Shown here: piece by piece, positions 1 to 33,212 of the stretch
Layout: every line of letters starts with the position of its first letter
How positions within the stretch are numbered: position 1 is the stretch's first letter
Virus record (IMG/VR): IMGVR_UViG_3300000116_000078
Location: 1-35,580 of that record
Strand: one strand, 5' to 3'
Source: a virus
Length of the DNA: 35,580 bases
Notes under the pieces: generated by a model
Told to the model about the DNA's origin: nothing
The model's input: only the letters and a program-made list of their open reading frames with translations
The model's database searches: none
Program-made: the position numbers and the translations under genes

Positions 1-1
1 C

Positions 2-58
2 AGATTGGATCCATACCCAGCAGCAGTAGCACTTTCTATCAATGTCGTTTCTGCTTAG
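2..58 (+). CDS. C-terminal end of an upstream gene (partial)
   Basis: An open frame enters from the left edge and ends at TAG 56-58, giving the C-terminal fragment RLDPYPAAVALSINVVSA. The alternating hydrophobic end and the close packing against the next gene suggest a real structural protein, probably another baseplate or tail-tube component. The fragment is too short to identify. If the next gene starts at ATG 66 the two are separated by 7 bases; if it starts at ATG 42 they overlap. Confidence 0.5.
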   Translation, partial: RLDPYPAAVALSINVVSA

Positions 59-65
59 TATACTG

Positions 66-1052
66 ATGGCTAAAATAACCGCAGCAGATATACAAAGAGA
101 CCTGTTAGAGTCTCAGATTAAGCTGGGAAGAATATCCAGCATGATTCAAAATGTTGAGAATACTTATACTAGATTGAATGCATCTTTTAAAACAACGGAG
201 TCTTTATTGAAAGTTGTCAGCAGATCCATAAAGGATGTTGAAGAAGAATATGATTCTGATATTGAAGAGCAGCAAGAGACAACTGCACAAAAAGTAAGAC
301 GAGTCCGATTAGAAGAGGATAAGAATGAAAGAGAATTAAAAAAAGATCTTGATGTAAATAGAACTTTAATGACAGCATTGATGGGAGCACCAACACTTGC
401 TACTGCAGGATCCCTCAGTATGCCATCTGATGATACTGAAGTTGAAGATGAAGATCAGACTGGTGAGAATGGAAAATTATCTCCTAGCCAGCTAATTGCT
501 GTAGGACAACTATCAAGTAGCCCAGAGGGGGGTCCTTATTGGTATGGAAATACAGCCTACCTGAGACCCGATGCAGCACGGGCATTTATAGAAGCACAGC
601 AAGCAGCAGCCGTTGAGAACATAACGATAGTGATTAATAGCGCATACAGAAGCTATAAACACCAGGAAGCATTAGTTGGCAAGTATGCTGTTGTTGCCAA
701 ACCTGGAACATCACCACACGGTCTAGGCATTGCTTTGGATATTGAGACTGGGGCTGGTTGGAATTGGATGACTAAGAATGGAATGAAGTATGGTTGGAAG
801 TGGATGGCTATTCCAAATGATGAAGTTCACTTTGAATATGTTGGTGGTGGATCTGCTGAACCAGCGCAGACTATTAGTTATGAAGAGATAAGTAAAAGTA
901 CAACTGGATCTAAGTTTGGACTTGTTGTAGTGGAACCTCAATCTCAAACAGAACCACCAAATATATTTCAACCTCCACTATCACCAGCACCTAGAAGAAT
1001 AGCACTAAATACATCTAGACCGCATCCGTTCTTTATTACACCTACTGGTTAA
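66..1052 (+). CDS. Putative tail-associated M15-family zinc peptidase (D-Ala-D-Ala carboxypeptidase / L-Ala-D-Glu endopeptidase type)
   Basis: The C-terminal half carries the M15 signature: SAYRSxxxQ, then SPHGLGIALD, then VHFEY. Numbered from an alternative ATG at 42 (subtract 8 for ATG 66), the zinc ligands are His226, Asp233 and His263, with His to Asp spaced 7 apart. Asp260 sits three residues before the last His, as in the DxxH arrangement of M15C endolysins. Such enzymes cut peptidoglycan peptides. The N-terminal third (about 20-110) is acidic and charged, probably coiled coil, and the C-terminus is Pro-rich, so the enzyme is probably tethered to the virion. It lies just before hub genes, so a role in local wall digestion during injection is inferred. 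ATG 66 is preferred because the frame upstream encodes the end of the previous gene; ATG 42 adds MSFLLSIL. The stop overlaps the next ATG (TAATG). Confidence 0.75.
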   Translation: MAKITAADIQRDLLESQIKLGRISSMIQNVENTYTRLNASFKTTESLLKVVSRSIKDVEEEYDSDIEEQQETTAQKVRRVRLEEDKNERELKKDLDVNRTLMTALMGAPTLATAGSLSMPSDDTEVEDEDQTGENGKLSPSQLIAVGQLSSSPEGGPYWYGNTAYLRPDAARAFIEAQQAAAVENITIVINSAYRSYKHQEALVGKYAVVAKPGTSPHGLGIALDIETGAGWNWMTKNGMKYGWKWMAIPNDEVHFEYVGGGSAEPAQTISYEEISKSTTGSKFGLVVVEPQSQTEPPNIFQPPLSPAPRRIALNTSRPHPFFITPTG

Positions 1053-2314
1053 TGTCCGCAGAAAATAGTTTTGAATACGGTAAATTTAAAATCAAACTTC
1101 TTAAATCAAATTCTGAAATAACAGAAATTGATTTGGGATCAAATTCTATTTCCAGTTTTTCTTTTTATGAGAACGTAAAGTCTCCTGGACTTACTGCAAA
1201 TCTAAAGTTCATGACAACTGATGTTGTCGGTGGGAAGATTGAGTTGTATGGTGGAGAACAAGTAATTGGAAGTGTCAAGGTCACAGACTTTTCTGAAGAT
1301 GAAATTAAAGTCAACTTCAGAGTTAGAAGTATGCAAGTTTTGAAGGACTCTGGAAAGACGGCATTCAATCTAGAACTTGTAAGTCTTGAAACCTTAAAGA
1401 ATGAAACTAAAAGGATCTCAAATAGATTTGATGGTAATATTGCAACAACGGTTGAGAAAATCTTTAAGAGTTTAGAGAGTACTAAAAGGATAGAGACCGA
1501 ACAAACTTCTAACAAGTACTCCTTCATTGGTAATAGTAAAAGACCTTTTGATTTGTTTACTTTCCTGATGCCAAAGGCAGTTTCGTCAGGTGAAAAGAAA
1601 TCTGCTGGATACTTTTTCTTTGAAACTCAAGATGGATATGTCTTTAAGAGTATCAACACGTTGTTGAGTGGAGATGTTCAAGAGATCTATACACAAGACG
1701 AAGCATCAGCGGCAAACAATCCAAATAATAAGTTTAGAATACTTACATCTTATGTTGAGAAAAATAATGATGTACTGAATTCTTTACGACTTGGAATGTA
1801 TTCGAGCAATACATTCTTCTACAACATGTATACAAATGAAGCTAAGAGTGTTGACTTTAAATTAAAAGAGAAGTATAATAAGAGCATTGCAACTTCTGCT
1901 AAGAAATTTACAGAGTCTTATCCTCCACTACCAGGAAACATTCAAGAGTTTCCTTCTAGATATTATGTTAGATCGTTGGACGTTGGTAATTTAGATAAGA
2001 CTGGTAAACTTAGCAAGGATACAATGTATCCTGACCTACCTAAATATCAAGCAGAAGCTGTTGTGAGGTACAATTTATTGTTCTCACAGGTATTAAAAAT
2101 AACAATACCATGCAATCCTTCATTAAGAGCTGGTCAAGTAATCGAATGTAGAATACCTGAAACTGCTTCACAAATGAAAGATAAAAATTATGGTTCTCAA
2201 AACTCTGGACGTTATATGATATCTGCATTGCACCATGCATTTGCTGGCAAAACTTGTTACACCAGTCTTGAGTTAATTAGAGACTCTTACGAAATCAAAA
2301 CTCAGGTAGCATAA
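1052..2314 (+). CDS. Baseplate hub protein, gp27-like candidate
   Basis: A 420-residue protein with no signal peptide or membrane segment. It is rich in beta-strand-like stretches, beginning with FEYGKFKIKLLKS and a Leu/Ile/Ser-rich domain. It ends in a region (RSLDVGNL..., LRAGQVIECRIPE..., GRYMISALHH) that resembles the second barrel of gp27/gpD-type hub proteins, where 'aGqvi...P' and 'yliss..H.f' patterns recur. The length is close to T4 gp27 (391 residues). It lies one small gene upstream of a gp5-like OB-fold protein, its expected partner: in T4 a gp27 trimer forms the torus that holds the gp5 spike. The assignment rests on position, size and weak motifs, so another baseplate component is possible. 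The start ATG overlaps the previous stop. Confidence 0.55.
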   Translation: MSAENSFEYGKFKIKLLKSNSEITEIDLGSNSISSFSFYENVKSPGLTANLKFMTTDVVGGKIELYGGEQVIGSVKVTDFSEDEIKVNFRVRSMQVLKDSGKTAFNLELVSLETLKNETKRISNRFDGNIATTVEKIFKSLESTKRIETEQTSNKYSFIGNSKRPFDLFTFLMPKAVSSGEKKSAGYFFFETQDGYVFKSINTLLSGDVQEIYTQDEASAANNPNNKFRILTSYVEKNNDVLNSLRLGMYSSNTFFYNMYTNEAKSVDFKLKEKYNKSIATSAKKFTESYPPLPGNIQEFPSRYYVRSLDVGNLDKTGKLSKDTMYPDLPKYQAEAVVRYNLLFSQVLKITIPCNPSLRAGQVIECRIPETASQMKDKNYGSQNSGRYMISALHHAFAGKTCYTSLELIRDSYEIKTQVA

Positions 2315-2315
2315 C

Positions 2316-2528
2316 ATGGAAAACATCGAACAACACATTCAAAAAGACAAAGAGATTCTTGATAATCCTACCATCTCACCACAGATGCGTCGTCATACTG
2401 AAGAAGAGCTAAAAGATTTGGAAGCATATGCAGAGCGTCATCCTGGTGATGAGCATGATCCAACTCCTTTAGAACTTTATTGTGATGCAAATCCAGATGC
2501 CCTAGAATGTAGAGTATACGACGACTGA
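2316..2528 (+). CDS. CP12-like small protein (putative Calvin-cycle regulator homologue)
   Basis: A 70-residue acidic protein whose C-terminus, ELYCDANPDALECRVYDD, matches the CP12 tail. It has a Cys pair with eight residues between (Cys56, Cys65), an internal Pro, and the ECRxYDD end that in CP12 docks into the GAPDH active site. Upstream, TEEELKDLEAY lies where CP12 has its AWDxVEEL helix, but the N-terminal Cys pair is absent. CP12 forms an inhibitory complex with GAPDH and phosphoribulokinase. Cyanophages are known to carry CP12 genes, thought to shift host carbon flow toward the pentose phosphate pathway. The unusual point is the location: 1 base after the hub gene and overlapping the gp5-like start (TGATG), so it would be co-expressed with late structural proteins. 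It could instead be a small structural protein with a convergent tail. Confidence 0.7.
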   Translation: MENIEQHIQKDKEILDNPTISPQMRRHTEEELKDLEAYAERHPGDEHDPTPLELYCDANPDALECRVYDD

Positions 2529-4648
2529 TGTTTTTAGATCAATCCTCCAACCAATTAGTTAGAACACACTATCTCGGAAGAGATGGTTTTGTGTGGTGGC
2601 TTGGGCAGATTGCTCTACCAGACACATCAAAGTCTAATACTCAAGAATTATCTGCACGAAAGAAAGATACAACTCTGTATTATAATCGTGTAAAGGTTAG
2701 AATCTTTGGGTATCACACTGCGAATGGTGGAGAACTTCCCGACGTAGATTTGCCATGGGCACATATCTTAGTTCCTCCTGGAGTGGCTAATGGTACTCTT
2801 GGTGAAGGAACTTCCCATGAATATGTTGGAGGAGAAACTGTCTTTGGATTTTTCCTAGATGGTGATGAGGGGCAGCAACCAGTAATCGTCGGTTCTTTAT
2901 ACAAAGGATCTGGGATTCAGAATCTACAAACACTGACACAGGTCAAAACAAATAAGAGTACAAAGTTTCTTCCAACACTACCTCCAGGCAAGAGAGGTAA
3001 TCACACCATTAGAGTTGGTGGAGAAACTCTAGGTGGTCAAAATGTCAGAACTGGTGTTGGAAGTACAACTAGTACGGGAGTCAATCCTAAGAAAGGAACT
3101 TGTGGAATTGATGATAAAGCGAGATACATCCCTGAAGACACAGACAAAGCTACTGCTAAATTCTGTCTAGCAACTGATAAAGTTTCTATACCACCCAATC
3201 CTTGTAAAGAGGATGAAGTCTCAAAGATTACAAGTGCTCTTGAAGACTTCATGAAGAGAATGCAAGGATACCAAGCGTATCTTAATCTTTATGTTGGTGG
3301 AGTTGCGAATAAACTTGGTAGCATTGCTGGAGAAATCAGAGAGATTGGCATGTTAATTGCTGGTCTTATCACAGGTTTGTTCAAGCGTGGGATGAAGTAT
3401 ATTTTTGATCAAGTATCGAAAAAACTTCAGGGATTAATCTCAACACTATTTCCAAAACCAAAACAATCAGCAGCGCAGCAAAAGGTAAGAACATTACTGA
3501 CAACAATCTACTGTTTGTTTAAGAAATTTATCAAGAAGATATTCTCTTATGTAATTAACCAACTACAATCAATGGTTGGTCAAGTTCTCAATGCAGCATC
3601 TTGTGTTGTTGACAACTTTGTTGGTCAAATGCTCGGAGACTTGTTTGACTCCTTTGCAAATGCTATTGGCCCAACACTAGATCAACTAAGCAATTTCCTT
3701 GGTGGTGCATTGGGCAAAGCAAATGAAATCATGAGTAAGGCACTTAACGTTGCTGGATTTATCAGAAGCTTGTTTGATTGTGAGAAGAGAAATTGCCAAC
3801 CACCTCAAAAGTTCACCACAAGATATGGCCCTTCACAACAAGAGATAGATAACTTCAATAAGATTATGAATAAGGCAGGCGCTGCTGGCGCTAGAAGTCT
3901 TATCAATGATCTTAAGAAAAAGAATCCAGATCTCTTTGGAGATGTTGACTTTGGATTTGGTGGATGTAGTGGTGACATCTTGAGATGTGGCCCACCAAGC
4001 ATTCAAATTCTAGGTGGCGGTGGATCTGGAGCATCTGCACAAGCAATTGTTAATAACTTGGGTCAGGTAATTGGTGCTAATATCTTAAATACTGGTCAAG
4101 CATACTTTGAACTCCCATACGTTTCTATCATTGATGGATGTGGTAAGGGACAAAATGCAAGGGCAAGAGCTGTACTTGATAATGGTGGAGTGACTAGAAT
4201 TATTATTGATGATCCTGGGTATGGATATCTAAACAATCAAACTACACAACAATATGGTTCTGAAGAAGTTAGTATTCCTTCTGAAGGAAACAACGATATC
4301 AATTCAAATTCTTATGTGACGGTTATTGATAGTGTTGAGATTGATGATATTGGTTCTGGTTATGATGAGAACACTGCAATCGTAGTAATCCCAGGTGATA
4401 ATGATATTGGAGTAGTTGATCTTCCAGAGTTTGAATTGCAATTTGGCCCAAATGGTTCAATTATTGGGGTCAAGGTTACAAACAAAGGTGGTGGATTTAC
4501 ACAAGTCCCAGAGATTCAAGTTGTTAGTTTGGATGGTGCTGGTGCAGTATTGAAACCAGTCTTCAGATTTGTTGAGGTAAATAAAGAAGACGCTGGCGAG
4601 TTCGGTGTAGGTAGAGTTCTTAACGTTGTGGATTGTGTTCAAAGATGA
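2528..4648 (+). CDS. gp5: gp5-like baseplate hub/spike protein with OB-fold, lacking the lysozyme domain
   Basis: Residues about 10-135 match the gp5 N-terminal OB-fold domain: RVKVRIFGYHT, DLPWAHILVPPG, GETVFGFFLDGDEGQQPVIVG. In T4 this domain seats the spike on gp27. The lysozyme domain that follows in T4 gp5 is not visible. Instead, residues about 225-420 are long amphipathic or hydrophobic helices, including IGMLIAGLITGLF and several Cys. The C-terminal third (about 495-700) has Gly-rich beta modules of the type 'YELPYVSII..GCGKGQNARA' and 'IIIDDPGYGY', repeated at least twice. At 706 residues it is longer than T4 gp5 (575). Wall cleavage may be supplied by the M15 peptidase gene upstream. 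The start overlaps the previous stop, and the stop overlaps the next gene's ATG (ATGA). Confidence 0.8.
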   Translation: MFLDQSSNQLVRTHYLGRDGFVWWLGQIALPDTSKSNTQELSARKKDTTLYYNRVKVRIFGYHTANGGELPDVDLPWAHILVPPGVANGTLGEGTSHEYVGGETVFGFFLDGDEGQQPVIVGSLYKGSGIQNLQTLTQVKTNKSTKFLPTLPPGKRGNHTIRVGGETLGGQNVRTGVGSTTSTGVNPKKGTCGIDDKARYIPEDTDKATAKFCLATDKVSIPPNPCKEDEVSKITSALEDFMKRMQGYQAYLNLYVGGVANKLGSIAGEIREIGMLIAGLITGLFKRGMKYIFDQVSKKLQGLISTLFPKPKQSAAQQKVRTLLTTIYCLFKKFIKKIFSYVINQLQSMVGQVLNAASCVVDNFVGQMLGDLFDSFANAIGPTLDQLSNFLGGALGKANEIMSKALNVAGFIRSLFDCEKRNCQPPQKFTTRYGPSQQEIDNFNKIMNKAGAAGARSLINDLKKKNPDLFGDVDFGFGGCSGDILRCGPPSIQILGGGGSGASAQAIVNNLGQVIGANILNTGQAYFELPYVSIIDGCGKGQNARARAVLDNGGVTRIIIDDPGYGYLNNQTTQQYGSEEVSIPSEGNNDINSNSYVTVIDSVEIDDIGSGYDENTAIVVIPGDNDIGVVDLPEFELQFGPNGSIIGVKVTNKGGGFTQVPEIQVVSLDGAGAVLKPVFRFVEVNKEDAGEFGVGRVLNVVDCVQR

Positions 4649-5226
4649 CAAAACCGACAGTACAAATAAAATCGACGTACAGAGTAGACGGTGGCAATAC
4701 CATTCCTGTCCATGGAAAGGTAAACCATTCTATGATTTGTCAAAATGGTGATGGTGAAATTTATGCTGAGAGTGGTAGAAATGTAAAGACTGTTAGTGAA
4801 GCATCGATTGAAGTAGTTGGCACAGAACTATCAGCTAATGCAGATGCTAGTCAACCACATATCCCAGCAAAATGGATTCGTGCAGAGAAGGGAGATGTTC
4901 TAATAGAAGCACCTAATGGTACTTTGTATTTGTCTGCAAGAAATATAGTAGTTGCTGCATCAGGCCCTGAGACAGAAAATTCTAGCAATGGTAACATTGA
5001 TATTATTGCATCCAATGATATCAATCTTGATTCAAAGGACACTATAAAAATGGATGCTACAAATGTTTATATGAATGCATCATTAGCAATGGACATTTGT
5101 GGCAAATCATTCTTGAGTATCACTGGAGGGATGACAATCGGTGGTTCTGGAGTTGATTCCAAATCAATTTTAAGTGTAAGTGGAACTATTATTAATAGCT
5201 TAACAGGACTAGGAGGATTGTTATAA
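4645..5226 (+). CDS. Beta-repeat spike-like protein
   Basis: A 193-residue protein taken from ATG 4645, whose ATGA overlaps the stop of the gp5-like gene. An earlier in-frame ATG at 4633 is possible but lies deeper inside that gene. The middle and C-terminal parts are short alternating beta repeats: GDVLIEAPNGTLYLSARNI, GNIDIIASNDINLDSKDTI, KMDATNVYMNAS. These resemble the VgrG/gp5 C-terminal beta-helix, in which successive strands wind a trimeric needle. It ends in a Gly/Leu-rich stretch. The likely role is the membrane-piercing needle, or a sheath of the spike, encoded separately from the OB-fold part. No PAAR-type tip motif was seen. The stop TAA shares its last base with the next ATG. Confidence 0.6.
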   Translation: MTKPTVQIKSTYRVDGGNTIPVHGKVNHSMICQNGDGEIYAESGRNVKTVSEASIEVVGTELSANADASQPHIPAKWIRAEKGDVLIEAPNGTLYLSARNIVVAASGPETENSSNGNIDIIASNDINLDSKDTIKMDATNVYMNASLAMDICGKSFLSITGGMTIGGSGVDSKSILSVSGTIINSLTGLGGLL

Positions 5227-6269
5227 TGAATTTCCCATCTTTATGTGCAGAAAATAGTTTGCATGTTGGATTATCCGATCCAACATTCTTACCAGGCGTA
5301 GGTCTTTTAAAACTTCCTGGTCTTGCAACGATTAATGGGCCTCTTGTTGTTGGTGGTACATTAGTTGATGGCATTATGGGACCTCTTTTCCCCAAAACAT
5401 CTGTAGTTAATATTATTCCATCATTAAATGCAGTTGGAACAGCTTTAAAGATCAGTGCTCTTGGTGATGGTATTGCACCGTTTCCTGGGATAGGTTTGCA
5501 AGTCAGTGCGTTAAGTCATAATATTATTGCAGCTGCAACTATAGATGTAACAAGTCCTATCACTAATATTAAAGGTGGTTTATTAAATGTTATCGCTCCA
5601 ACTACAGTAACGGGATTCTTAACTATTACTGGTGGTGTTTCTATTACTGGAGCTGCTACAATAGGAACCGTAATATTGAGTGGTGGAACACTATCATTTG
5701 CAAACGCCGCCACATCAATTGCATCAACACTAGCAGTTTCTGGAGCCGCTGCATTTACAGCAGCAGCATCTTTTAGTAGTCCAGTTGGAATCACAAATAC
5801 ACTAACAGTATCAGCAATTACTTTGACTGGAACTGGTGATGTTGCTACTGAAATTGCATTAGCAAAAGCACTACCTGCAAAACCGTTTGACATCAAACAT
5901 CCAACCAAAGATGGTCATAGATTACGTCACGTCTCTCTTGAAGGCCCTGAAATTGCTGTTTATTATAGAGGTAAGTTGGATGGGGAGCATGTAATCAAAC
6001 TTCCAGATTACTGGAGTGGTTTGGTGGACGAGTCAACCATTACAGTTCAATTGACTCCTTATAAGTATTCAGATTCAACATTATATGTCAAGAAAGTTCA
6101 ATCAGACAAGATCATCATTGGATCTGAGAAGCTTACAAAGATCTACTGTTATTATACAGTGTTTGCTGAAAGAAAAGACCTCGAAAACCTGATCGTCGAG
6201 TATGAGGGTGAGACCATTAAGGATTATCCTGGTCAGGACTTCATCGGGGTATTGACAGACACAGAATGA
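5226..6269 (+). CDS. Structural protein with beta-roll repeats and a conserved 'EGPE' tip domain
   Basis: A 347-residue protein. Residues about 60-215 are low-complexity Ala/Gly/Thr/Val/Ile repeats of alternating polarity (for example GVSITGAATIGTVILSGG, TLAVSGAAAFTAAASFSS), consistent with a beta-helix or beta-roll shaft. From about residue 222 the composition changes to a compact domain: FDIKHPTKDGHRLRHVSLEG, then PEIAVYYRG, LPDYWSGLV, and a strand-rich end. I recognise this 'hP...RL.H..lEgPE..vYyRG' pattern from the C-termini of many phage and phage-like fibre proteins. Its biochemical role is not known to me; trimerisation or receptor contact is plausible. As the last gene of the hub operon it may be a tail-tip or central-fibre component. 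A host-type promoter overlaps its 3' end. Confidence 0.6.
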   Translation: MNFPSLCAENSLHVGLSDPTFLPGVGLLKLPGLATINGPLVVGGTLVDGIMGPLFPKTSVVNIIPSLNAVGTALKISALGDGIAPFPGIGLQVSALSHNIIAAATIDVTSPITNIKGGLLNVIAPTTVTGFLTITGGVSITGAATIGTVILSGGTLSFANAATSIASTLAVSGAAAFTAAASFSSPVGITNTLTVSAITLTGTGDVATEIALAKALPAKPFDIKHPTKDGHRLRHVSLEGPEIAVYYRGKLDGEHVIKLPDYWSGLVDESTITVQLTPYKYSDSTLYVKKVQSDKIIIGSEKLTKIYCYYTVFAERKDLENLIVEYEGETIKDYPGQDFIGVLTDTE

Positions 6270-6280
6270 TCTGCTATAAT
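6252..6280 (+). promoter_or_regulatory. Consensus sigma-70 promoter with extended -10
   Basis: TTGACA at 6252-6257, a 17-base spacer, then TATAAT at 6275-6280 preceded by TGC, which completes the extended -10 element TGnTATAAT. Every position matches the bacterial housekeeping consensus. It overlaps the last codons of the preceding gene, and transcription would start near 6287. It would let host RNA polymerase transcribe the 59-residue gene and tRNA-Leu early in infection, independently of the phage late machinery. Confidence 0.85.
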
Positions 6281-6306
6281 ATGTGAGTCCGTGTGAAGGA
6301 AGTGCT

Positions 6307-6340
6307 GGGGGAGATCATTCTCCCCCGCCATCAATTTTTT
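6307..6340 (+). terminator. GC-rich hairpin followed at a distance by a T-run (terminator or attenuator candidate)
   Basis: GGGGGAGA (6307-6314), loop TCAT, TCTCCCCC (6319-6326) form a perfect 8-bp stem. A run of six T follows at 6335-6340, eight bases after the stem. The gap is longer than in a textbook intrinsic terminator, so termination may be partial. It sits about 20 bases after the predicted start of the 6252 promoter. It could therefore end the hub-operon transcript, attenuate the early transcript, or protect a 5' end. Confidence 0.5.
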
Positions 6341-6347
6341 AATTCTT

Positions 6348-6527
6348 ATGAGACAAGAAACCAGAGAAGCAATGGAAATGCTGTTCACTGCAAAGTGGAA
6401 CTTGCCAAAAGCAGCAAGACATGCTAAACTAACTAACAAGGAAATGAAGATTACTTTTAATGAGTACTGTAATTTCCATCCATCTACCTATGTGGCAGAA
6501 TGTAACAACCAACTCAAACTCTTCTGA
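6348..6527 (+). CDS. Small conserved-looking protein of unknown function (59 residues)
   Basis: The frame from ATG 6348 to TGA 6527 encodes a 59-residue basic protein beginning MRQETREAMEMLFTAKW and continuing with NLPKAARHAKLTNKEMK. It looks helical, and the middle (AARHAKLTNKEMKITFNEY) could form a helix-turn-helix-like pair of helices. That is a guess from the pattern only. It lies directly downstream of the consensus promoter and ends 8 bases before tRNA-Leu. No Shine-Dalgarno sequence is evident, since the leader is AT-rich. The sequence is not low-complexity and its placement argues for a real gene. I do not recognise a named family. Confidence 0.65.
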   Translation: MRQETREAMEMLFTAKWNLPKAARHAKLTNKEMKITFNEYCNFHPSTYVAECNNQLKLF

Positions 6528-6535
6528 GTTTTTAT

Positions 6536-6620
6536 GGGAGCGTGGTGGAAGTGGTAGACACACCAGACTTAAAATCTGTCGGGCGTTACGCCCATGTCGG
6601 TTCAAGTCCGACCGTTCCTA
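6536..6620 (+). tRNA. tRNA-Leu (anticodon UAA)
   Basis: An 85-base class II tRNA. The acceptor stem GGGAGCG pairs with CGTTCCT (two G-U pairs), with discriminator A6620. The D-arm region contains TGGTAGAC. The anticodon loop CTTAAAA gives UAA, on a stem with a mismatch at its outermost pair. The long variable arm GGGCG-TTA-CGCCC is typical of leucine tRNAs. The T-arm is GTCGG-TTCAAGT-CCGAC. CCA is not encoded. It reads UUA codons. Confidence 0.93.
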
Positions 6621-6705
6621 TCTGAGTCAAAATCAACTTTTGATTCAAAAAAAGGCGGGAAAAAAATTCCCCCAAAAAATTGCCAAAAAGGTTTTTTGGA
6701 AAACA
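6621..6705 (+). other. AT-rich spacer with two hairpins
   Basis: Directly after tRNA-Leu, GAGTCAAAA (6624-6632) can pair with TTTTGATTC (6638-6646) across a 5-base loop. Further on, CCAAAAA (6683-6689) pairs with TTTTTGG (6693-6699). Both stems are AT-rich and neither is followed by a T-run. They may mark a 3'-processing site of the tRNA transcript rather than a classical terminator. No gene is visible in this short stretch. Confidence 0.4.
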
Positions 6706-6712
6706 CTAAATA
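6706..6712 (+). promoter_or_regulatory. Candidate T4-type late promoter (CTAAATA)
   Basis: CTAAATA followed by AC lies 10 bases before ATG 6723. It matches the late-promoter-like elements seen before other genes in this window and is a one-base variant of the T4 late -10 box TATAAATA. The short distance would leave a very short leader. Confidence 0.4.
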
Positions 6713-6722
6713 ACCCAAAGCA

Positions 6723-7001
6723 ATGAAGCTTATGAAATATCGAATCGACACTGCATATTGCTGGTATTTGAACGGCACTATGATAGTGAAGATGTATTTC
6801 ATAAATCAGGTTCCTTTCACATTTGATGAACTTCCTGATGAATCAATTCATGATGAAGAGTTAATTAAACTCGCAAACAACGAATGTAGCTACGAACCAG
6901 AAGATCTATACAAATCATCATTTTACTTGATTGACGAAGAATGTCATCCAATGTTATTTGATGTTGAGTTAGAAAATCCTGAAATGTTACCCGTTGATTA
7001 A
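6723..7001 (+). CDS. Small acidic hypothetical protein (92 residues)
   Basis: A 92-residue protein beginning MKLMKYRIDTAYCWYLNG. An internal start at ATG 6732 is equally possible. It is acidic, with Glu/Asp-rich stretches (DELPDESIHDEELIKLA; NECSYEPEDLY) and three Cys, and has no membrane segment or recognised domain. It is sandwiched between tRNA-Leu and tRNA-Thr, ending one base before the tRNA-Thr gene, so both are likely on one transcript. A CTAAATA late-type box lies immediately upstream. The function is unknown to me. Confidence 0.65.
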   Translation: MKLMKYRIDTAYCWYLNGTMIVKMYFINQVPFTFDELPDESIHDEELIKLANNECSYEPEDLYKSSFYLIDEECHPMLFDVELENPEMLPVD

Positions 7002-7002
7002 C

Positions 7003-7074
7003 GCCCTTGTAGCTCAGTGGTAGAGCAGCTGTCTTGTAAACAGCAGGTCGTCCGTTCAAATCGGATCGGGGGCT
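7003..7074 (+). tRNA. tRNA-Thr (anticodon UGU)
   Basis: A 72-base tRNA. The acceptor stem GCCCTTG pairs with CGGGGGC (two T-G wobbles) and the discriminator is T7074. The D-arm contains AGCTCAGTGGTAGAGC. The anticodon stem-loop GCTGT-CTTGTAA-ACAGC gives UGU, reading ACA codons. The T-arm is GTCCG-TTCAAAT-CGGAT. No CCA is encoded. The upstream coding region stops one base before the tRNA begins. Confidence 0.95.
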
Positions 7075-7099
7075 TTTATATAATATAAAATATATTAAA

Positions 7100-7492
7100 A
7101 TGAATTTACTTCAACTTTCTGGAATAGAAGATAATTCTAAAATAAAAACTAAAGTGTGTTTAAAATGTAAAACTGAAAAACCAATTTTAGAGTATGCTAA
7201 ACATTCCCATTATCATGATAATTTAGATAGTACATGTAAAACATGTAGAAAAAACCTTGCGAAATTGAGAGATAAACTTCGTAAAAATGCTCCGCCAATG
7301 CCAAAAATTTGCGATTGTTGCAAAAAACCACCAGTTAAATTTGGTAACAAAAAAAATCTTTGTTTAGATCATGATCAAGAAACAAATCAATTTAGGGGGT
7401 GGTTATGTGAGCCTTGTAATACAGGAATGGGTCTTCTGGGAGACAATCTTGATAGTCTTATGATGGCTGTGGAATACTTAAAAAATAAATAA
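7100..7492 (+). CDS. Endonuclease VII/HNH-type nuclease (probable free-standing homing-like endonuclease)
   Basis: A 130-residue protein with two zinc-binding regions. The N-terminal one has CLKCKTEKP...CKTCRK (about residues 19-50). The second resembles the recombination endonuclease VII core: CDCCKKPP (about 71-78), LCLDHDQETNQFRGWLCEPC, then NTGMGLLGDN and a C-terminal AVEYL helix. The DHD...FRGWLC.pCN signature is the betabeta-alpha-metal catalytic motif. T4 endonuclease VII (gp49) resolves branched DNA, but many phage relatives of this size are mobile homing-type nucleases in intergenic sites. Here the gene sits between a tRNA and a structural gene, far from replication genes, and is richer in A/T (strings of AAA/AAT codons) than its neighbours, so mobility is plausible. 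The AT-rich leader contains TATAAT at 7079-7084 with a weak -35. Confidence 0.85.
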   Translation: MNLLQLSGIEDNSKIKTKVCLKCKTEKPILEYAKHSHYHDNLDSTCKTCRKNLAKLRDKLRKNAPPMPKICDCCKKPPVKFGNKKNLCLDHDQETNQFRGWLCEPCNTGMGLLGDNLDSLMMAVEYLKNK

Positions 7493-13942: not shown

Positions 13943-14509
13943 ATGTCACAGACAACAGTAGAATTAATCACGGATGGTAAGATTCAAACTGCAGATCTAG
14001 CTTCAGATCTGCAGAAAGCATTTGTTCCCCTTGGTGGGATTATTATGTGGTACGGATCAGTTGCATCTGTACCCGATGGCTTCTCTTTATGTGATGGATC
14101 GACAGTAAATGGTTATGCCACACCAAATTTACAAGATAGATTTGTTATTGGTGCTGGGAATTCTTATGCAGTAAATGCAACTGGTGGTAGTGCTAACGCA
14201 ACTCTAGTATCTCACACCCATACAGCAAGTGCTAATGGTGATCACAATCACACTATTGATGCAGTTGGCGATCACTCCCACACATATACAAGAACTAGTG
14301 CTCCTTCTGGTGGACAAGACCAGGCAGGTTCTGGATCTGGTGACGCTGTTAATCAATCAAACTCAAATACAGGTTCTGCTGGTGGTCATACCCACACATT
14401 GCAAAATGCTGGATCTCATGCTCATACCATTAGCACAGAGGGTTCTTCAGCAACAAATGCCAATCTTCCACCATATTATGCTCTTTGCTACATCATGAGA
14501 ACATCCTAA
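13943..14509 (+). CDS. Short tail-collar fibre protein with five HxH motifs
   Basis: A 188-residue protein. It has an N-terminal ELITDGKIQTADLASDLQ linker, a tail-collar domain (GFSLCDGSTVNGYA; PNLQDRFVIGAG), and a His-rich tip. HxH motifs start at residues 91, 101, 111, 149 and 159, exactly ten residues apart within each group. In T4 gp37 and gp12, equivalent HxH motifs from three chains coordinate metal along the fibre axis, so a metal-stapled trimeric needle is expected. The tip and the end (EGSSATNANLPPYY) match the C-terminus of the giant protein just upstream, so this is a free paralogue of that tip. A good ribosome site, AGAGGAAA, lies upstream. It is probably co-transcribed with the giant gene. 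It could cap, replace or mix with that fibre's tip. Confidence 0.85.
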   Translation: MSQTTVELITDGKIQTADLASDLQKAFVPLGGIIMWYGSVASVPDGFSLCDGSTVNGYATPNLQDRFVIGAGNSYAVNATGGSANATLVSHTHTASANGDHNHTIDAVGDHSHTYTRTSAPSGGQDQAGSGSGDAVNQSNSNTGSAGGHTHTLQNAGSHAHTISTEGSSATNANLPPYYALCYIMRTS

Positions 14510-23584: not shown

Positions 23585-26500
23585 TTGGCTGATCAGAATT
23601 TTAGAGTCAAACATGGTATCTCTCTCGATACCGAGCAAATTATAGACGTAAATAGGAATATTAATGCTGGCGTGGCTACTGTCACCCACGCCAGAGTGTC
23701 AGGAATCACTACAATTGGTATCGTTTCTACTGTCGATCCTGCTACTGGTGGGATCGGCATTGTTACATTCCAGTCAAAGGTTGCAATTCAAAGTGGTACA
23801 CAACTTATTACTATTGCACCACCTAGCCAGAATGCTGGCTTTGTTTCGTCTTATAATTTGACTCTACCAGCCAAGCTTGGTACTGATGGTCAGGTATTAA
23901 CTCTAGGACAGAATGGTATCCTAGGTTTTAACACTGGAGGTTTATACGAAAATAGATATTACGTTTCTGCTGCTAATGGTGACGACAACAATGATGGTCG
24001 TTCAAAACCATTCGCTACAATCAAGAAAGCTGCACAAGCAGCATCATTTAGATCTTTCCAACTTCCTGGTGGTAGATTCCTCGATGCAGGTAACCTCCTC
24101 GAAGTAAACAAATCATTCATTCAGAATGAGGTTGTCGGTTTTATTACCAATACTTATCCTGGAATTCTTGCAAATCCTGACTACGACGAAACAACTTGTA
24201 AGAGAGACGTTGGATATGTTGTTGATGCTATTGTATATGACCTTTCGTTCGGTGGTAACTCCAAATCTAGAGAGGCTGGTCTAGCTTACTGGAATGGTGT
24301 AAATGCTGTTGCTGGTGAAGAGGAAGAAACCATTGCTGGTTTTGATTATATTAAAACCCTCTCAAGATATGTTGTCAATAACGTAGCTATTACAACATCA
24401 TATCAATCTCCAGTATTCAGCACCTCACAATCATTTGATCTAACAATTGCTTATGATGCTGGTTGTGGCATTGGCAATTCTTACAGTGCTGATTGTTGTG
24501 CCGATGTTGTATCTGCTATTGGTTCTTATGTTGGTATTGTAACCAGCGTTATTGGTATTGGTACAACTGCAGCTCCAGCTGAATCACTACCAACAACTCT
24601 GTCCAAACCAATTGCAATCTTTGTTGAGGCTGGTGATTACACCGAAGACAACCCAATTCTTCTCTATGAAGACGTTGCTATCATCGGTGACAACCTAAGA
24701 AACACAATCATTAGACCTCAAAATGCAGGTAAAGACCTGTTCAGGGTCAGGAATGGTTGTTATGTAACGCAGTTTGCGATGAAGGATAACATCGATGCTG
24801 CTGGTTTACCACAATTTGCGTTTGATAATGCTGTTGCATTTGATGATCCAGCCGATCCTTTAGTAAGTAGAACTGGTTATGCAACAAAGAATGATCAACC
24901 AAGAATTACAAGATCTCCATATATTCAGAACTGTTCGATCCTATCATTCTTAGGTGCGAATGGTATTCTTGTTGATGGTTCTAAAGTTGTAACACCTAAC
25001 GTTGCCGTTATTGAAGAAGAAGGTGAAAACCCAGTTGCAGGTGCTCAACCTGAATTTGGTAAATCCATGGTTGCTGCTGCCTTTACCATGGTTTCCTTCG
25101 GTGGTCTGGGTTGGCGTGTTATTAACGATGGTTATTCACAGGTTGTTTCGTGTTTCCAAATCTTTTGTAGATATGGATCACTTGCACAGTCTGGTGGTTA
25201 TCTATCCATTACAAACTCTGCTACAAACTTTGGTCTATACGCACTAAGATCTACTGGTTTCAGTCAAAACTCATTTAGATTTGACCGTGGTAGAATTGCT
25301 GCAACTGGTACTTCTGGTGGTCTGCAAACAATTAAAGTTATTGGTCTTGGAAGAACAGATCAAGATCTTTATGTTACCAGATTCTTTAATAATGCTCTAA
25401 GTGATCAAACTGCAAACTTCAAGCCAGTTGTTACACAGGAAACATTCAACCCTGCTGTTGGCGTTAATACTATAACAGATAGAATTACAATCTCTGGTCA
25501 CGCATTTATTCAAGGTGATACAGTTCTATACATTGGTGATGAAAATGCTTCTCCAGCACTTGTTATTGAAGGTTTGGTTAGTGATAACCAGTATTATGTC
25601 AACTACATTGACGCTAACCAATTCCAACTTTATGAAGATGATAGTTTTACAAGACTAGTCGATCTTAAATCATCTCCTGCTGGTATTAACACATTCCAGA
25701 AAGGTAACGTAGAATTCTTTGCCTCAGAAATCATTAATACGCACTCTCAATATCAAGAACTTGGTATTGGTGCAACAGGTGGAACACCACAGTTTATTTC
25801 TGGTAGAACTGTTACGCAATCAGTATCTGGTGGTAATGCTGTTGGTTACGCATTAACTTATATTGATTCAACCAGAAGTCTTGTTGTTTCTGTTGAAGAA
25901 TCTGGTGGAACAAGAAGATTCTTTGCTATTTCAGGCATTGGTGGAGCTGGTCAAATTGCTGACCACCAAGGTTCACCTGTATCGTTCTTTATTGATACTG
26001 TTACTGGAATTGGTACTTATAGAACTGTTGAAACTAAGATTAATTCTACACCTGAAGGAACCGTAATTTCTGGTGTTGCTAACCTTCCTGAAGATTACTA
26101 TTGCCACTTCCACAGACCATCCATTGTTAACTCTTCTGCACACACTTGGGAATACTCTGGATCTGGTACTGACTACAATGCTCTACCACAAAACGGTGGT
26201 GTAACCGATCCTGCAACTGAACAGGTATTCTTCCTTGGTGGTCGTGTTTACTCCTCAGGTACTAACGAACTTGGTGACTTCAAGATTGGTTCATTCATTA
26301 CTGCGTTCAACAGAACTGGTAACATTATCTTTAATAACAAAGTTACCATTGGTCAGTTAGACTCCTTGAGATTGAGTCTGTCTGGTGGTGTTGCTGTTGA
26401 AGAATTCTCCACTGATATTGGACTAGGTGATAATGAAGTTGGTGGTGCTCTAAACTCCAGAATTTCTACTCAGTTAGCTGTTAGATCATTCCTCAACAAT

Positions 26501-29500
26501 AGACTTGGAAACGTAATTGATAAGACTGTTTCTACTAACGCAGTTCCTAGTGCTATTGTTCAGCTAAACGCAACTGGTCAGATCAACGCTGACTTGATTC
26601 CTCCAAAGGTTGTTAACTACTATAGAGCTAATGTTGCTGGCGGTAAGACAGAACTGGTTGATCAAATTCCACCAGTTGACATTAGAAATGGTGACACAGT
26701 TCTTGAACCTTCTCAAGGATTTGTTCTTGTTAGTGATGTCTTTGGTCAATTCCTAAAACTTTCTGATAATACTAGAGATTATAACTATAATAATGGTCAG
26801 CAAGTAGTTAGTGCTGGTAGTGCTGGTGGTGCCATCGGTATTGTTACTATACCAACATCCGCTGGATATGGTGCAACTGGTCTTGTTAAAGGTGTTCTTC
26901 TAAGCATTAACACACTCAATGGTGGTAGTGGTTATACTAACCCTGGTGTTTATACCTGCGTTCTTGATACATCAACTGGTATTGGTACAAGTGCAAGAGC
27001 TGCTATTACGGTTGGTGGTGCAGGTACTGTTACTGCTGTTTCTCTTGTATATGGTGGTAGATACTATGCTGATGGTGATGTTGTTACCATCAATGATCCA
27101 AACCTACTTGGTGGTAGATCTGGCGGCGCTAACTTTAGTGCAACGATTGGAAGTAATAACATTGAGACAAGACTATATCTAAAACTAACAAATAACCAGA
27201 AGTTTACTGGTTCAGCATCTTTACCTGATTATGTTGAAGACGGTGACGCTGTTGGCGTTGGTACTACACTTTCTGCAGAATATACAGCAACATTTGATCC
27301 TACAGATGCAGGAACTGGTGGTGATGTAGACTTCGCTAACGATAGAATTATTGTTGGTGTCAATACATTTGCTGATGGTGATCCTGTTTACTACTATAAT
27401 GATGGTGGCAACGTTGTCAGCACCTTGAGTGGTAATGGTGCATACTATGTTAAGAGAGTTGGTATTACCTCTATTGAACTTTACAACTCTTATGCACTAT
27501 CATCTAAGATTGATTTAGATACAAGTGGTACTGGAACACAGAGAATTGTTAGAGTCGGTGTTAACACTGATAAGAACTCAATTATCTTCCTAAATCACGG
27601 ATTTGCAACTGGTGATTCAGTCAGAGTTTCTGATGCTGCTCCAACAGGAATTACAACTGGTAACTTCTACTATGTTGGTTCTGTTACAGAGAACTCATTT
27701 ACCCTACACGAAGCAAGAACTGATGCTGTTATCTCTGTTAACGGTGCAGTATTCAATGCTGTAGGTCTTACCTCATCGAATGATGCAGGCACTATGACAT
27801 TCACCAAACAGAATGTCATCTACAATGGTACTATCAACACCTCATCTAACCTAGAAGATAACTACACAGTTCTTGCTTCTGGTACTGTAGACGCTGCAAA
27901 CATTACTTCTGGTGTTCTTTCACCAACCAGATTGGGTAGTGGAACTGCTAATGACCAGACCTTCCTAAGAGGTGACTCTGTATACGAAAAGGTAACTAAG
28001 TCAGTTGGTATTGGTACAACTGAACCAATTAGTGCAACTGGTTCAACAGCAGATCTTGCTCCTGCTGGTGTTGGTATTAATACTTACTACGGTAAGGTTC
28101 AGATTTCACTTAACCGTGTAGCATCTACCATTGATACATATTCAACTCTTGGTGTTTCCAGATTTAAGATGTCAACCTTCACCATCGGTGCTGATGGTGC
28201 GGTTTCAATTAAGGATTCACAAACTGGTGATGTTGATGCTGCAACTCTTGGACAACAGGCTGGTGCTTACTATCTAAACCCATCCAACTTTACATCATCT
28301 ATTCCTATCTCGAAGGGTGGTACGGGTCTAGCCGCTCTACCTCCTGCAGGTGCTATTCTACAGGGTAATGGAACATCTTATGACCTTGTAACATCACCAA
28401 CTATTTCTGGTGATTTGACTCTAACTGGTCAGGGTAACTTTAAGGCAGTTGGTGCTGCTATCACTCACGTCAACATCACTGGATTCGGTACTGCCGTAAA
28501 CTTTGAATCACAAAACTCCACATTCACTGGTATTGTATCCTTCACGGGTCCTGATGAGAACATCAGACACACATCTGGTACTGCAACACTTAACAATGTT
28601 AACGTAACTGGTGTTACTTCTGTAACCTCTCTATTCTTTGAATCTCTTGGTGGTACTGCTGGTGCTACAATTCCTTATATCAACAACATTAATACTGTAC
28701 ATACTGGAATTGTTACCTTTAATGCCTCTGATAATAATATCAACTGTACTGCTGGTACACAGGTATTCAACAGAGCTGTATTCACAGGCATTACAACCTT
28801 CCTAGATTTCGTTAACGTTGGTGAGGCTGTATATCAGACAGCAGATGTTAATGGAACACTAACTGTTGGTAACTTTGAGAACCTTGGTGTTAGCACTATT
28901 GGTTGGCTTGAGAGTGACAGCACACTTAACTCTGCTACCCTAAACGTATCTGGTGTATCTACAATCAGTGGTCACCTTGAAGTTGGTGGAACTTTAGATA
29001 TAACTGGCATCTCCACATTTAGAAATAATGTAAAACTTCTTGATGATGACGTTCTTAGTTTTGGTATTGGCGAGGATTTGCAAATTTATCATGATCAAAA
29101 TAATAGTGTAATTCGTGATGTAGGAACTGGTGTTCTTTATATTGGAGGAAATAGTCAAGTTAGATTGTATGGAAGTGGTAATGGTTCTCAACTTGTGACT
29201 GCAACTCAAGGTGGATCAGTAGAACTCTACCACAACAACTCCCTGAAATTAGCAACCGCTGCTTATGGTATTAATGTAACAGGAACTACCGAATCTGACA
29301 ACCTCCTTGTAACTGGTATTAGTACCTTTAACACTAATATTAACCAAGCCGCTGGAACATTAGCTGCAAACATTCTAACAGTTGCAAGTAATGCTACCTT
29401 CTCTGGTAACATCACAGCAAGCACTGGAACCATTACTGCTAACAACTTCACAGGTTCACTTAACCACACCCTAACCAGAGGTTCATACCTAACTGGCAGC

Positions 29501-31681
29501 AACTTCAACAACTCTGCTAGCACCACCTGGGCAGTTGATGCTACATCATCCAACACTGCATCCAAGGTTGTTGCCAGAGACGGTTCTGGTAACTTCGCTG
29601 CTGGTAATATCACTGCTACAAGATTCATTTCTAACGGTTCATTCTCTTCCACCTCTGGTTCTATTCAACTGACTGGTTCTACTGGTAACTGGATCTCTTG
29701 GAATGCTAATGGTGTTGCTGCTCCTACATTTACCACCAGAAGTGCTGGTACTAAGTTAGTCTTATATCCAGGCTTAAGTGCTTCTAGTGTTGATTATGCT
29801 TTAGGTATTCAAGGCAGTACACTTTGGTATTCAGTTCCAAGTACAGGTTCTGTCCATAACTGGTACGGTGGAACCACCAGCATGATGACTCTAACCAACA
29901 GCAACCTCGATGTTGTTGGTAACGTCACAGCTTCCAGACTAATCTCTGATGTTGCACAAGGAACTGCACCACTACAAGTAACCTCAACCACACAGGTTTC
30001 TAACCTTAACGTTTCATTCCTTGAAGGTTATTCAACTGCCACCACAAACACCGCTAACAGAATTGTAAGACGTGATGCTTCTGGTAACTTCAGTGCTGGT
30101 ACGATTACAGTTGGATCTGTATCATCTTCTGGTGCTATTTCTGGTACAGTATTAACTGCAAGCACACGTCTTACAGCTACTGGTGCAAACGCTCCAAACA
30201 CTTTTGCATATCTAAACATTGGATTTAGTGGTTCTGGTATTGAAACTAGAGCAATTGATATTGATGGTGCCTGGGGTGCTGGTGAAAGTAAATCAATTAC
30301 TTTTACTCATGGTGGCAGCTCCACCAATATGGTTGGACAAATTAATTGCCAACATACTAGTCCTGGAAGTAGACTAAGATTTGGTAGATTATATCATAGT
30401 GGTGATTCATCAACTTATATTATGGAGTTGATCTCCACAAATGCTACCAGTGGTTACTTAACAATTAATGGAGGTACAGTTTGGCATTCTTTAAACGATG
30501 GATCTGGATCTGGTCTAGACGCTGACTTATTAGATGGTTTAAACAGTGCTTCGTTCTTGAGATCTGATACTGATGCAGTTACTAGCGCAAGACTTGCTGT
30601 TGGTGGTCACATTGGTTCCAGAAGTCCTGGTTTTAGTGTTAATGGTGACGGCAACTCTTCTCCAATTGCTGCTAAAGTAAGTGATTATAATACAGTATGG
30701 GCAGTTCTTCCTTGGTCTAGTGGACAAACATATATTAGTTCTGGTATTTACTATGATGATGGTTCTTGGATTCATGCATCTGCAGATGCCACTAATTGTT
30801 TGTTTAGGCTTGATGGTGGTGGATGTACTTGGTTTTCATCAAATAATTCTTCTGGATCATGGAACGTTGCTTCTGATGTTTCTTTGTGGACATCTCAAGG
30901 TTATTGGAATAACAGACTATCTACCAGTGTAACTTATAATGGAAATACTATTTGGCACGCTGGAAATGATGGTGCTGGTTCTGGTCTAGATGCTGACACT
31001 GTTGATGGATATCAATTCTTAAATACTCAAGGCATCTCAGCGACTGGTAACTTTGGTCAATGGTTTGGTCATAGTACCTACACTGATTTCAACGCTAGTA
31101 TTTCATATTGGGGTTGGAATTATGTTCAGGGAAATACAAATGCTCCTAACAGCACATCTTCACAATGGTATAGAAACAGAGTTTCTCTTGGATCCCAATA
31201 TGGTATAAATTATTCTTCTGGTCATTATTGGCTGGAGATGGCATATCCAAGAGCTAATAATACAACTGCTGGTCACATGTGGGTCAGAACCTGTGAGAAT
31301 GGATCTGTAGGAGGTTGGACTCAAGTTGGTGCAAATATTATTGGTAACTTTACCGCAACTGGTACAGTTACCTCAAGTTCTGATGCTAGACTCAAAGAAA
31401 ATATCACCACAATTGATAATGCTCTAAGCAAAGTTCTAAATCTACGTGGTGTTGAATATGATCGTCCTGATTTAGAAGGATCACCACATCATATTGGTGT
31501 CATCGCTCAAGAAATTGAGGAAATTATTCCTGAAGTTGTTTCTGAAGATGATTCTGGTTATAAGAAAGTTGCTTATGGCAACTTGGTTGGTCTACTAATT
31601 GAAGCAATCAAAGAACAAAATGATACCATAAATACGTTGAAAGCAGAAGTAGAAACCCTCAAATCAAAACTAGGAGACTGA
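23585..31681 (+). CDS. Giant structural protein 3 (2698 residues) with C-terminal S74 self-cleaving chaperone
   Basis: The start is TTG 23585, giving MADQNFRVKHGISLD with AAGGGGA about 10 bases upstream. No ATG fits better. Residues about 119-375 contain the shared beta-helix start (RYYVSAANGDDNNDGRS; FATIKKAA; LRNTIIRP) with a long insertion in the middle. The body has 'HGFATGD' type beta modules, 'TLNNVNVTGVTSV' shaft repeats, a module with LQIYHDQNNSVIRDVGTGVL near 29080, and two IWHAGND/WHSLNDG...GLDAD modules. The C-terminus is a peptidase S74 intramolecular chaperone: SSDARLKENI with Ser2599, HHIGVIAQEIEEIIPEVV and a final coiled coil. S74 domains assist trimer folding and then cut themselves off just before the Ser. 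The mature fibre would therefore be about 2598 residues. Confidence 0.88.
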   Translation: MADQNFRVKHGISLDTEQIIDVNRNINAGVATVTHARVSGITTIGIVSTVDPATGGIGIVTFQSKVAIQSGTQLITIAPPSQNAGFVSSYNLTLPAKLGTDGQVLTLGQNGILGFNTGGLYENRYYVSAANGDDNNDGRSKPFATIKKAAQAASFRSFQLPGGRFLDAGNLLEVNKSFIQNEVVGFITNTYPGILANPDYDETTCKRDVGYVVDAIVYDLSFGGNSKSREAGLAYWNGVNAVAGEEEETIAGFDYIKTLSRYVVNNVAITTSYQSPVFSTSQSFDLTIAYDAGCGIGNSYSADCCADVVSAIGSYVGIVTSVIGIGTTAAPAESLPTTLSKPIAIFVEAGDYTEDNPILLYEDVAIIGDNLRNTIIRPQNAGKDLFRVRNGCYVTQFAMKDNIDAAGLPQFAFDNAVAFDDPADPLVSRTGYATKNDQPRITRSPYIQNCSILSFLGANGILVDGSKVVTPNVAVIEEEGENPVAGAQPEFGKSMVAAAFTMVSFGGLGWRVINDGYSQVVSCFQIFCRYGSLAQSGGYLSITNSATNFGLYALRSTGFSQNSFRFDRGRIAATGTSGGLQTIKVIGLGRTDQDLYVTRFFNNALSDQTANFKPVVTQETFNPAVGVNTITDRITISGHAFIQGDTVLYIGDENASPALVIEGLVSDNQYYVNYIDANQFQLYEDDSFTRLVDLKSSPAGINTFQKGNVEFFASEIINTHSQYQELGIGATGGTPQFISGRTVTQSVSGGNAVGYALTYIDSTRSLVVSVEESGGTRRFFAISGIGGAGQIADHQGSPVSFFIDTVTGIGTYRTVETKINSTPEGTVISGVANLPEDYYCHFHRPSIVNSSAHTWEYSGSGTDYNALPQNGGVTDPATEQVFFLGGRVYSSGTNELGDFKIGSFITAFNRTGNIIFNNKVTIGQLDSLRLSLSGGVAVEEFSTDIGLGDNEVGGALNSRISTQLAVRSFLNNRLGNVIDKTVSTNAVPSAIVQLNATGQINADLIPPKVVNYYRANVAGGKTELVDQIPPVDIRNGDTVLEPSQGFVLVSDVFGQFLKLSDNTRDYNYNNGQQVVSAGSAGGAIGIVTIPTSAGYGATGLVKGVLLSINTLNGGSGYTNPGVYTCVLDTSTGIGTSARAAITVGGAGTVTAVSLVYGGRYYADGDVVTINDPNLLGGRSGGANFSATIGSNNIETRLYLKLTNNQKFTGSASLPDYVEDGDAVGVGTTLSAEYTATFDPTDAGTGGDVDFANDRIIVGVNTFADGDPVYYYNDGGNVVSTLSGNGAYYVKRVGITSIELYNSYALSSKIDLDTSGTGTQRIVRVGVNTDKNSIIFLNHGFATGDSVRVSDAAPTGITTGNFYYVGSVTENSFTLHEARTDAVISVNGAVFNAVGLTSSNDAGTMTFTKQNVIYNGTINTSSNLEDNYTVLASGTVDAANITSGVLSPTRLGSGTANDQTFLRGDSVYEKVTKSVGIGTTEPISATGSTADLAPAGVGINTYYGKVQISLNRVASTIDTYSTLGVSRFKMSTFTIGADGAVSIKDSQTGDVDAATLGQQAGAYYLNPSNFTSSIPISKGGTGLAALPPAGAILQGNGTSYDLVTSPTISGDLTLTGQGNFKAVGAAITHVNITGFGTAVNFESQNSTFTGIVSFTGPDENIRHTSGTATLNNVNVTGVTSVTSLFFESLGGTAGATIPYINNINTVHTGIVTFNASDNNINCTAGTQVFNRAVFTGITTFLDFVNVGEAVYQTADVNGTLTVGNFENLGVSTIGWLESDSTLNSATLNVSGVSTISGHLEVGGTLDITGISTFRNNVKLLDDDVLSFGIGEDLQIYHDQNNSVIRDVGTGVLYIGGNSQVRLYGSGNGSQLVTATQGGSVELYHNNSLKLATAAYGINVTGTTESDNLLVTGISTFNTNINQAAGTLAANILTVASNATFSGNITASTGTITANNFTGSLNHTLTRGSYLTGSNFNNSASTTWAVDATSSNTASKVVARDGSGNFAAGNITATRFISNGSFSSTSGSIQLTGSTGNWISWNANGVAAPTFTTRSAGTKLVLYPGLSASSVDYALGIQGSTLWYSVPSTGSVHNWYGGTTSMMTLTNSNLDVVGNVTASRLISDVAQGTAPLQVTSTTQVSNLNVSFLEGYSTATTNTANRIVRRDASGNFSAGTITVGSVSSSGAISGTVLTASTRLTATGANAPNTFAYLNIGFSGSGIETRAIDIDGAWGAGESKSITFTHGGSSTNMVGQINCQHTSPGSRLRFGRLYHSGDSSTYIMELISTNATSGYLTINGGTVWHSLNDGSGSGLDADLLDGLNSASFLRSDTDAVTSARLAVGGHIGSRSPGFSVNGDGNSSPIAAKVSDYNTVWAVLPWSSGQTYISSGIYYDDGSWIHASADATNCLFRLDGGGCTWFSSNNSSGSWNVASDVSLWTSQGYWNNRLSTSVTYNGNTIWHAGNDGAGSGLDADTVDGYQFLNTQGISATGNFGQWFGHSTYTDFNASISYWGWNYVQGNTNAPNSTSSQWYRNRVSLGSQYGINYSSGHYWLEMAYPRANNTTAGHMWVRTCENGSVGGWTQVGANIIGNFTATGTVTSSSDARLKENITTIDNALSKVLNLRGVEYDRPDLEGSPHHIGVIAQEIEEIIPEVVSEDDSGYKKVAYGNLVGLLIEAIKEQNDTINTLKAEVETLKSKLGD

Positions 31682-32687: not shown

Positions 32688-32697
32688 GGAAAGATAA

Positions 32698-33192: not shown

Positions 33193-33212
33193 ACACTACC
33201 TAGGGTCGAATC

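Follow-up and report, generated by a model that had tools for sequence, protein, structure and literature searches.

Genes and features at the locus

The window, a virus contig of 35,580 bases, carries T4-like cyanophage tail genes, and a short open reading frame (ORF) coding for a CP12 protein lies between two structural genes (Table 1). The upstream gene codes for a tail protein of PHROG 350, for which S-PM2, S-P4, and P-SSM7 supply the homolog annotation. It ends in TAA, one nucleotide before the CP12 ORF. The downstream gene codes for a gp5-like protein of PHROG 1922, and its ATG overlaps the CP12 stop codon by one base (TGATG). The same one-base overlap between CP12 and gp5 was found at 23 of 54 CP12-junction loci, and a spacing of +5 nt at 17 of them. 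The VanY-type gene ahead of the tail protein belongs to the same operon, and DSL-LC03 has the same gene order. The initial annotation of this DNA had described a 70-residue protein packed tightly between structural genes, and both the ORF and its packing were found as described there.

Table 1. Features at the tail protein-CP12-hub junction of the window.
Feature	Position	Strand	Evidence
VanY-type D-Ala-D-Ala carboxypeptidase domain protein, upstream of the tail protein	42..1052	+	PF02557, 3e-10
Tail protein (PHROG 350)	1052..2314	+	1.4e-86; T4-like gene cluster 15 in the deposited annotation of homologs
Candidate sigma-70-like promoter, TTGACT-17-TATAAT, within the tail gene and about 440 nt ahead of CP12	1851..1879	+	11/12 match
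CP12 coding sequence, 70 aa, ATG start, TGA stop	2316..2528	+	PF02672, PHROG 627, PDB CP12 chains
Putative GAPDH-docking C-terminal tail TPLELYCDANPDALECRVYDD, residues 50-70	2463..2525	+	phmmer alignment to 3zdf_C, 3b1j_C
Cys56 codon TGT, first of the C-terminal Cys pair	2481..2483	+	sequence
Cys65 codon TGT, second of the C-terminal Cys pair	2508..2510	+	sequence
gp5-like baseplate hub / tail lysozyme (PHROG 1922)	2528..4648	+	5.8e-104

Identity and class of the CP12 protein

The product of the ORF matched the CP12 family PF02672 (E = 1.1e-14, 55.4 bits, cut-off 22.7) across positions 3-70 of the 70 in the profile, and matched PHROG 627 at 1.8e-34. A phmmer search also aligned it with CP12 chains of solved structures, such as 6gfo_E (6.2e-07, residues 4-70), and its residues 50-70 with the CP12 peptide chain 3zdf_C (2e-05) and with 3b1j_C. 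By these matches, the ORF is a full-length CP12. The CP12 identity proposed in the initial annotation was therefore borne out, but its description of the protein as a CP12 tail was not, since the match spans the whole profile, and we rejected the reading as a tail only. When a second CP12 copy was sought, one copy each was found in all 13 phage records (8 from IMG/VR and 5 isolates) and in the window contig.

The CP12 of the window contains Cys at positions 56 and 65 only, separated by eight residues, and its last residues are ECRVYDD. No Cys occurs before residue 56 in the whole 70-aa sequence. The initial annotation had reported both this C-terminal pair and the absence of an N-terminal one. 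In the phmmer alignment the AWD_VEE core was not found, and the equivalent stretch is RHTEEELKDLE, of which only the EEL part is similar. A CP12 of 70 aa is a largely disordered protein, and the AWD_VEE core and the N-terminal Cys pair are required for full control of the GAPDH/PRK complex in plants. Canonical CP12-N/C proteins have both, and the protein of the window has neither; because no Cys precedes residue 56, it was not filed with them.

CP12 homologs were present in 370 of 390 cyanobacterial genomes. The host set was drawn from this genome search, and a single-protein scan of contigs yielded two relatives only. The N-terminal Cys pair is present in the full-length canonical cyanobacterial proteins (L090-L098, 7 distinct), whereas it is missing in all the host proteins recovered of the class most similar to the phage proteins, which, judged from the sequences, belongs to marine-type picocyanobacteria (L104-L133, 27 distinct). 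It has been reported that classical CP12 occurs in all groups except marine picoplankton, and that cyanophage CP12 proteins resemble the C-terminal region of CP12 (PMC3906501). The C-terminal-Cys-only class of marine picocyanobacteria corresponds to the CP12-C(M) of Stanley et al. (2013), as cited in PMC3906501. Like the protein of the window, this class has a full-length profile match, a C-8x-C pair, and a DPTxLExxC...ECxVYDD tail, and lacks the N-terminal Cys pair. Phage and host marine-type proteins are about 50-62% identical, and the host SEIEAAKAAGDEAK stretch exceeds the phage KEILDNPTISPQ-type sequence by two residues. In a CP12 tree built from only 70 columns, with many forks unresolved, the host marine-type proteins formed one clade beside the phage rows with a support of 100/100. 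The loss of the N-terminal Cys pair is thus not a peculiarity of the phage, and its explanation as a phage adaptation was ruled out, because all 27 distinct marine-type host proteins are likewise without it.

The C-8x-C pair and the Glu before the second Cys were invariant in all distinct proteins, both phage (62/62) and host (27/27), and the final aromatic-acidic residues showed few substitutions in either group. Between the CP12 gene of the window and that of its nearest relative (L003, 90% identical protein), dN was 0.055 and dS was 0.66, and the median dN/dS was 0.14 over 69 usable pairs, which shows that the CP12 gene is under purifying selection. The low dN/dS together with the retained Cys, Glu, and tail residues is what a functional CP12 would be expected to show, and a recruited fragment would not. 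For the tail gene, the dN/dS obtained with L078 was implausible, probably owing to a misaligned slice, and was set aside. We are highly confident that the protein of the window is a CP12 with a metabolic role. Moreover, the gene is very probably an ordinary cyanophage auxiliary metabolic gene of the C-terminal-Cys-only class. This agrees with the initial annotation, which had called CP12 a known cyanophage auxiliary metabolic gene, and with both the flanking T4-like cyanophage structural genes and the wide occurrence of host homologs.

Position of CP12 across phages

The order tail protein, CP12, and gp5-like hub was also found in S-RSM4, S-T4, S-WAM2, ACG-2014e, S-SCSM1, S-CAM4, S-CAM9, DSL-LC02, and DSL-LC03, where the genes are joined by overlaps or short gaps as in the window, and in S-PRM1. 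The CP12 of the window is about 64-74% identical to those of the first nine of these phages; taken over the whole junction, DSL-LC03 comes nearest among the named phages, with 67.7% DNA identity over 1.2 kb. In a second group, consisting of syn9, S-RIM8, S-RIM2, S-RIM12, Syn33, P-SSM7, S-MS29, S-WAM1, S-H25, and ACG-2014d, CP12 follows the tail protein directly as in the window, but other genes precede gp5; in syn9, S-RIM8, S-RIM2, Syn33, P-SSM7, and S-WAM1 these are cpeT, tRNAs, or other small genes. In P-HM1, where it lies directly before talC, and in S-TIM5, a CP12 of the same family is located away from gp5, beside talC and other metabolic genes. Among 80 IMG/VR loci gathered with the CP12 protein as query, CP12 lay at the tail/hub junction in 49 and at other sites in 31, corresponding to 37 and 17 distinct proteins (n = 54). 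The junction is therefore conserved in other phages, even though the flanking proteins in some phages that share the CP12 position are only 23-40% identical.

On the CP12 tree, the hub position required 10 changes, compared with a shuffled mean of 31.9, and at least 4 changes were forced by supported branches. These results indicate that the position is inherited, yet has been gained or lost several times. The initial annotation had treated the location as surprising. However, Sullivan et al. (2010) listed talC and cp12 at variable positions, including "near gp5", and described an insertion hot spot with tRNAs near gp5 (PMC3037559). The CP12 junction is conserved but not new, and the record of the window adds one member to it.

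The same two flanking genes also occur without CP12. In S-PM2, which lacks CP12 (PMC3037559), the tail protein and gp5 genes are 29 nt apart. In a collection made with the S-PM2 tail protein as query, the two genes were adjacent without CP12 in 75 of 78 scorable loci, many of which are probably not from cyanophages. In addition, five contigs with CP12 elsewhere have an empty tail-hub junction. The simplest reading is thus that the tail-hub pair came first and that CP12 was inserted into it, which is a strong argument against a structural role. Phages with CP12 at the tail-hub junction, phages with the junction but no CP12, and phages with CP12 at another site form a clean natural comparison. 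It allows a direct test of whether a metabolic gene placed in a late operon is expressed late or from an early promoter of its own.

Virion data point in the same direction. The virion proteome of S-SCSM1, a phage with the hub junction, comprised 45 proteins (PMC9602691). CP12 carries no virion label in the deposited record, whereas the hub and the upstream lysis and tape-measure proteins do. The tail protein of S-SCSM1 is also unmarked, so the absence of CP12 is supporting and not decisive. The cp12 product of S-CREM2, a deep branch, is absent from the virion table of that phage. In both phages, absence of such a small protein in mass spectrometry is no proof.

One of the contigs with CP12 elsewhere is a 200-kb phage contig (L072) in which a row of ORFs at 3000-7100 codes for zwf (G6PDH-like), psbA-like, CP12, 2OG-oxygenase-like, and glutaredoxin-like proteins. 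The identities of these neighbors were judged by eye, and the empty tail/hub junction lies elsewhere in the same contig (L237).

Promoter-like sites and late motifs

Cyanophage late promoters have the form NATAAATA, and the early genes are believed to depend on host sigma-70 (PMC2984593). In the window, NATAAATA late-promoter-like motifs are located at 7484, 7511, 23541, 31627, and 31964, where they precede the tail-fibre genes and the genes after them, and at 33500; the ORFs starting at 7551, 23585, 31683, and 32001 are preceded, at a distance of about 37-56 nt, by the motifs at 7511, 23541, 31627, and 31964, respectively. A late programme is thus present in this phage. No such motif was found in positions 1-7000 of the window, and none occurred within the final 500 nt of the tail gene at any of 47 CP12-junction loci, where 3.0 were expected.

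Sigma-70-like sites, in contrast, were in excess in the end of the tail gene before CP12. A strong site was defined as a match of at least 10 of the 12 consensus positions, a threshold chosen on the first set. Relatives were clustered into groups, and the counts were compared with dinucleotide and synonymous-codon shuffles, with empty-junction controls, and with a second set of isolates. Such sites were found in 15.0 of 29 groups, compared with 4.1 (dinucleotide) and 5.8 (synonymous-codon) expected. Further upstream, the count was 7.2 against 4.7 expected, and in empty junctions it was 0.4 of 10 groups. With the criterion fixed, 8 of 15 further isolates had a site against 2.2 expected (P about 2e-4), with the same outcome after collapsing close relatives. 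In Syn9, where cp12 is gp17, the candidate site TAGACA-17-TATTAT is situated about 55 nt ahead of the stop codon of the tail gene. Of 11 cyanophage-like empty junctions, 2 had a site against 0.5 expected. The excess consists of consensus matches, not mapped promoters, and the positions of the sites differ between lineages. S-RSM4 is said to lack recognisable sigma-70 early motifs, according to an unpublished statement in PMC2984593. In the window, both hexamers of the candidate site at 1851-1879 are identical in the two nearest relatives (L002 and L003), but this site is not significant alone, since the null probability of a site with at least 10 of 12 matches is 0.42 under synonymous-codon shuffling.

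The lack of a late motif and the sigma-70-like excess suggest that CP12 may be transcribed early on its own. We tentatively propose that the end of the tail gene contains an internal host-sigma-70 early promoter for CP12 and, with slightly more reserve, that the CP12 insert carries or selects for such a promoter within the tail-gene coding sequence. The internal early promoter is the only part of this analysis that may be new, and it is offered as a suggestion and a lead, not as a result. If it is true, host carbon fixation would be turned off early while cp12 rides in the structural module.

Proposed role and timing of expression

A role for phage CP12 in favouring the pentose phosphate pathway was proposed by Thompson et al. 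(2011), as cited in PMC3906501 and PMC10665884. By analogy, the CP12 of the window would be translated in the infected cell, where its oxidised C-terminal Cys loop and ECRVYDD tail would dock into host GAPDH and might help to hold PRK as well. We infer such binding of GAPDH and PRK from the CP12 identity of the protein. Docking would slow the Calvin cycle, so that NADPH and pentose would go to phage nucleotide synthesis. The position of the gene would be a cargo site beside gp5 in the T4-like structural operon, with the stop-start overlap letting a gene insert without disturbing translation, and CP12 might be read from the operon and also from an early host-sigma-70 promoter inside the end of the tail gene. 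The timing of expression is relevant to the moment at which cyanophages switch off carbon fixation in their hosts, and this shutdown is important in the marine carbon cycle.

Alternatively, CP12 may be located there merely because gp5 borders an insertion hot spot, so that its position has no regulatory meaning and it is expressed by read-through. This account is possible but doubtful. Consistent with it, cpeT, tRNAs, pcyA, and small genes also insert between the tail protein and gp5, a hot spot with tRNAs near gp5 has been described (Sullivan et al., 2010; PMC3037559), and the position of CP12 has changed several times, as the supported branches of the tree require. However, the clustering of the position on the tree and the excess of promoter-like sites argue against it.

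It is unlikely that expression of cp12 is confined to that of the late structural operon, an arrangement that would couple the shutdown of the Calvin cycle to virion assembly. The tight packing with its stop-start overlap, the retention of the position between flanking proteins that have diverged widely, and the NATAAATA-type motifs ahead of the tail-fibre genes of the window would fit such late control. The absence of late motifs from the 47 junctions and the sigma-70-like excess would not. Furthermore, the auxiliary metabolic genes of P-HM2 are middle genes, among them cp12, which is highly expressed in light (PMC5082946); the sister phage P-HM1 has cp12 with talC and not at the hub. With S-RSM4, a phage of the hub-junction type, CO2 fixation ceases at about 2 h, compared with about 4 h for S-PM2 (PMC10452541), although S-RSM4 also carries zwf, gnd, and talC. 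On the question of whether CP12 expression is timed with virion assembly, the lack of late motifs and the sigma-70-like excess, both indirect, point weakly the other way.

The structural or packaged role raised in the initial annotation, in which CP12 would have become part of the hub or would travel in the virion and be injected, draws support only from the position of CP12 inside the hub operon, together with reports that cyanophage virions carry some metabolic proteins, such as NMNAT-like proteins (PMC9602691; PMC10665884), and we rejected recruitment as highly improbable because S-PM2 makes virions with the same junction and no CP12, the junction is empty in phages with CP12 elsewhere, the virion data of S-SCSM1 and S-CREM2 do not list CP12, and the protein is constrained like the metabolic CP12 of the host. 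A structural role of CP12 is thus unlikely, and the metabolic reading is preferred.

Other features of the window

Several further features were observed in the window. At the very end of the hub operon, ahead of the small ORF 6348-6527, positions 6252-6280 match the sigma-70 consensus perfectly (TTGACA-17-TATAAT), and a TG precedes the -10 hexamer; an early transcript may start there. A free-standing recombination endonuclease VII domain protein (PF02945, 9.5e-13) is encoded at 7100-7492, after the hub operon and before the tail-fibre genes. Positions 32184-33713 code for three small proteins in tandem, each with a Phage Tail Collar domain (PF07484, E from 3.6e-19 to 8e-23), and a weaker fourth match at 13943-14509 (1.2e-4) falls below the cut-off, suggesting duplicated fibre-tip proteins. 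The ORF 23585-31681 ends, at 31400-31680, in a C-terminus of the form SSDARLKENITTIDNALSKVLNLRGVEYDR..., which presumably resembles the self-cleaving chaperone domain of phage tailspikes.
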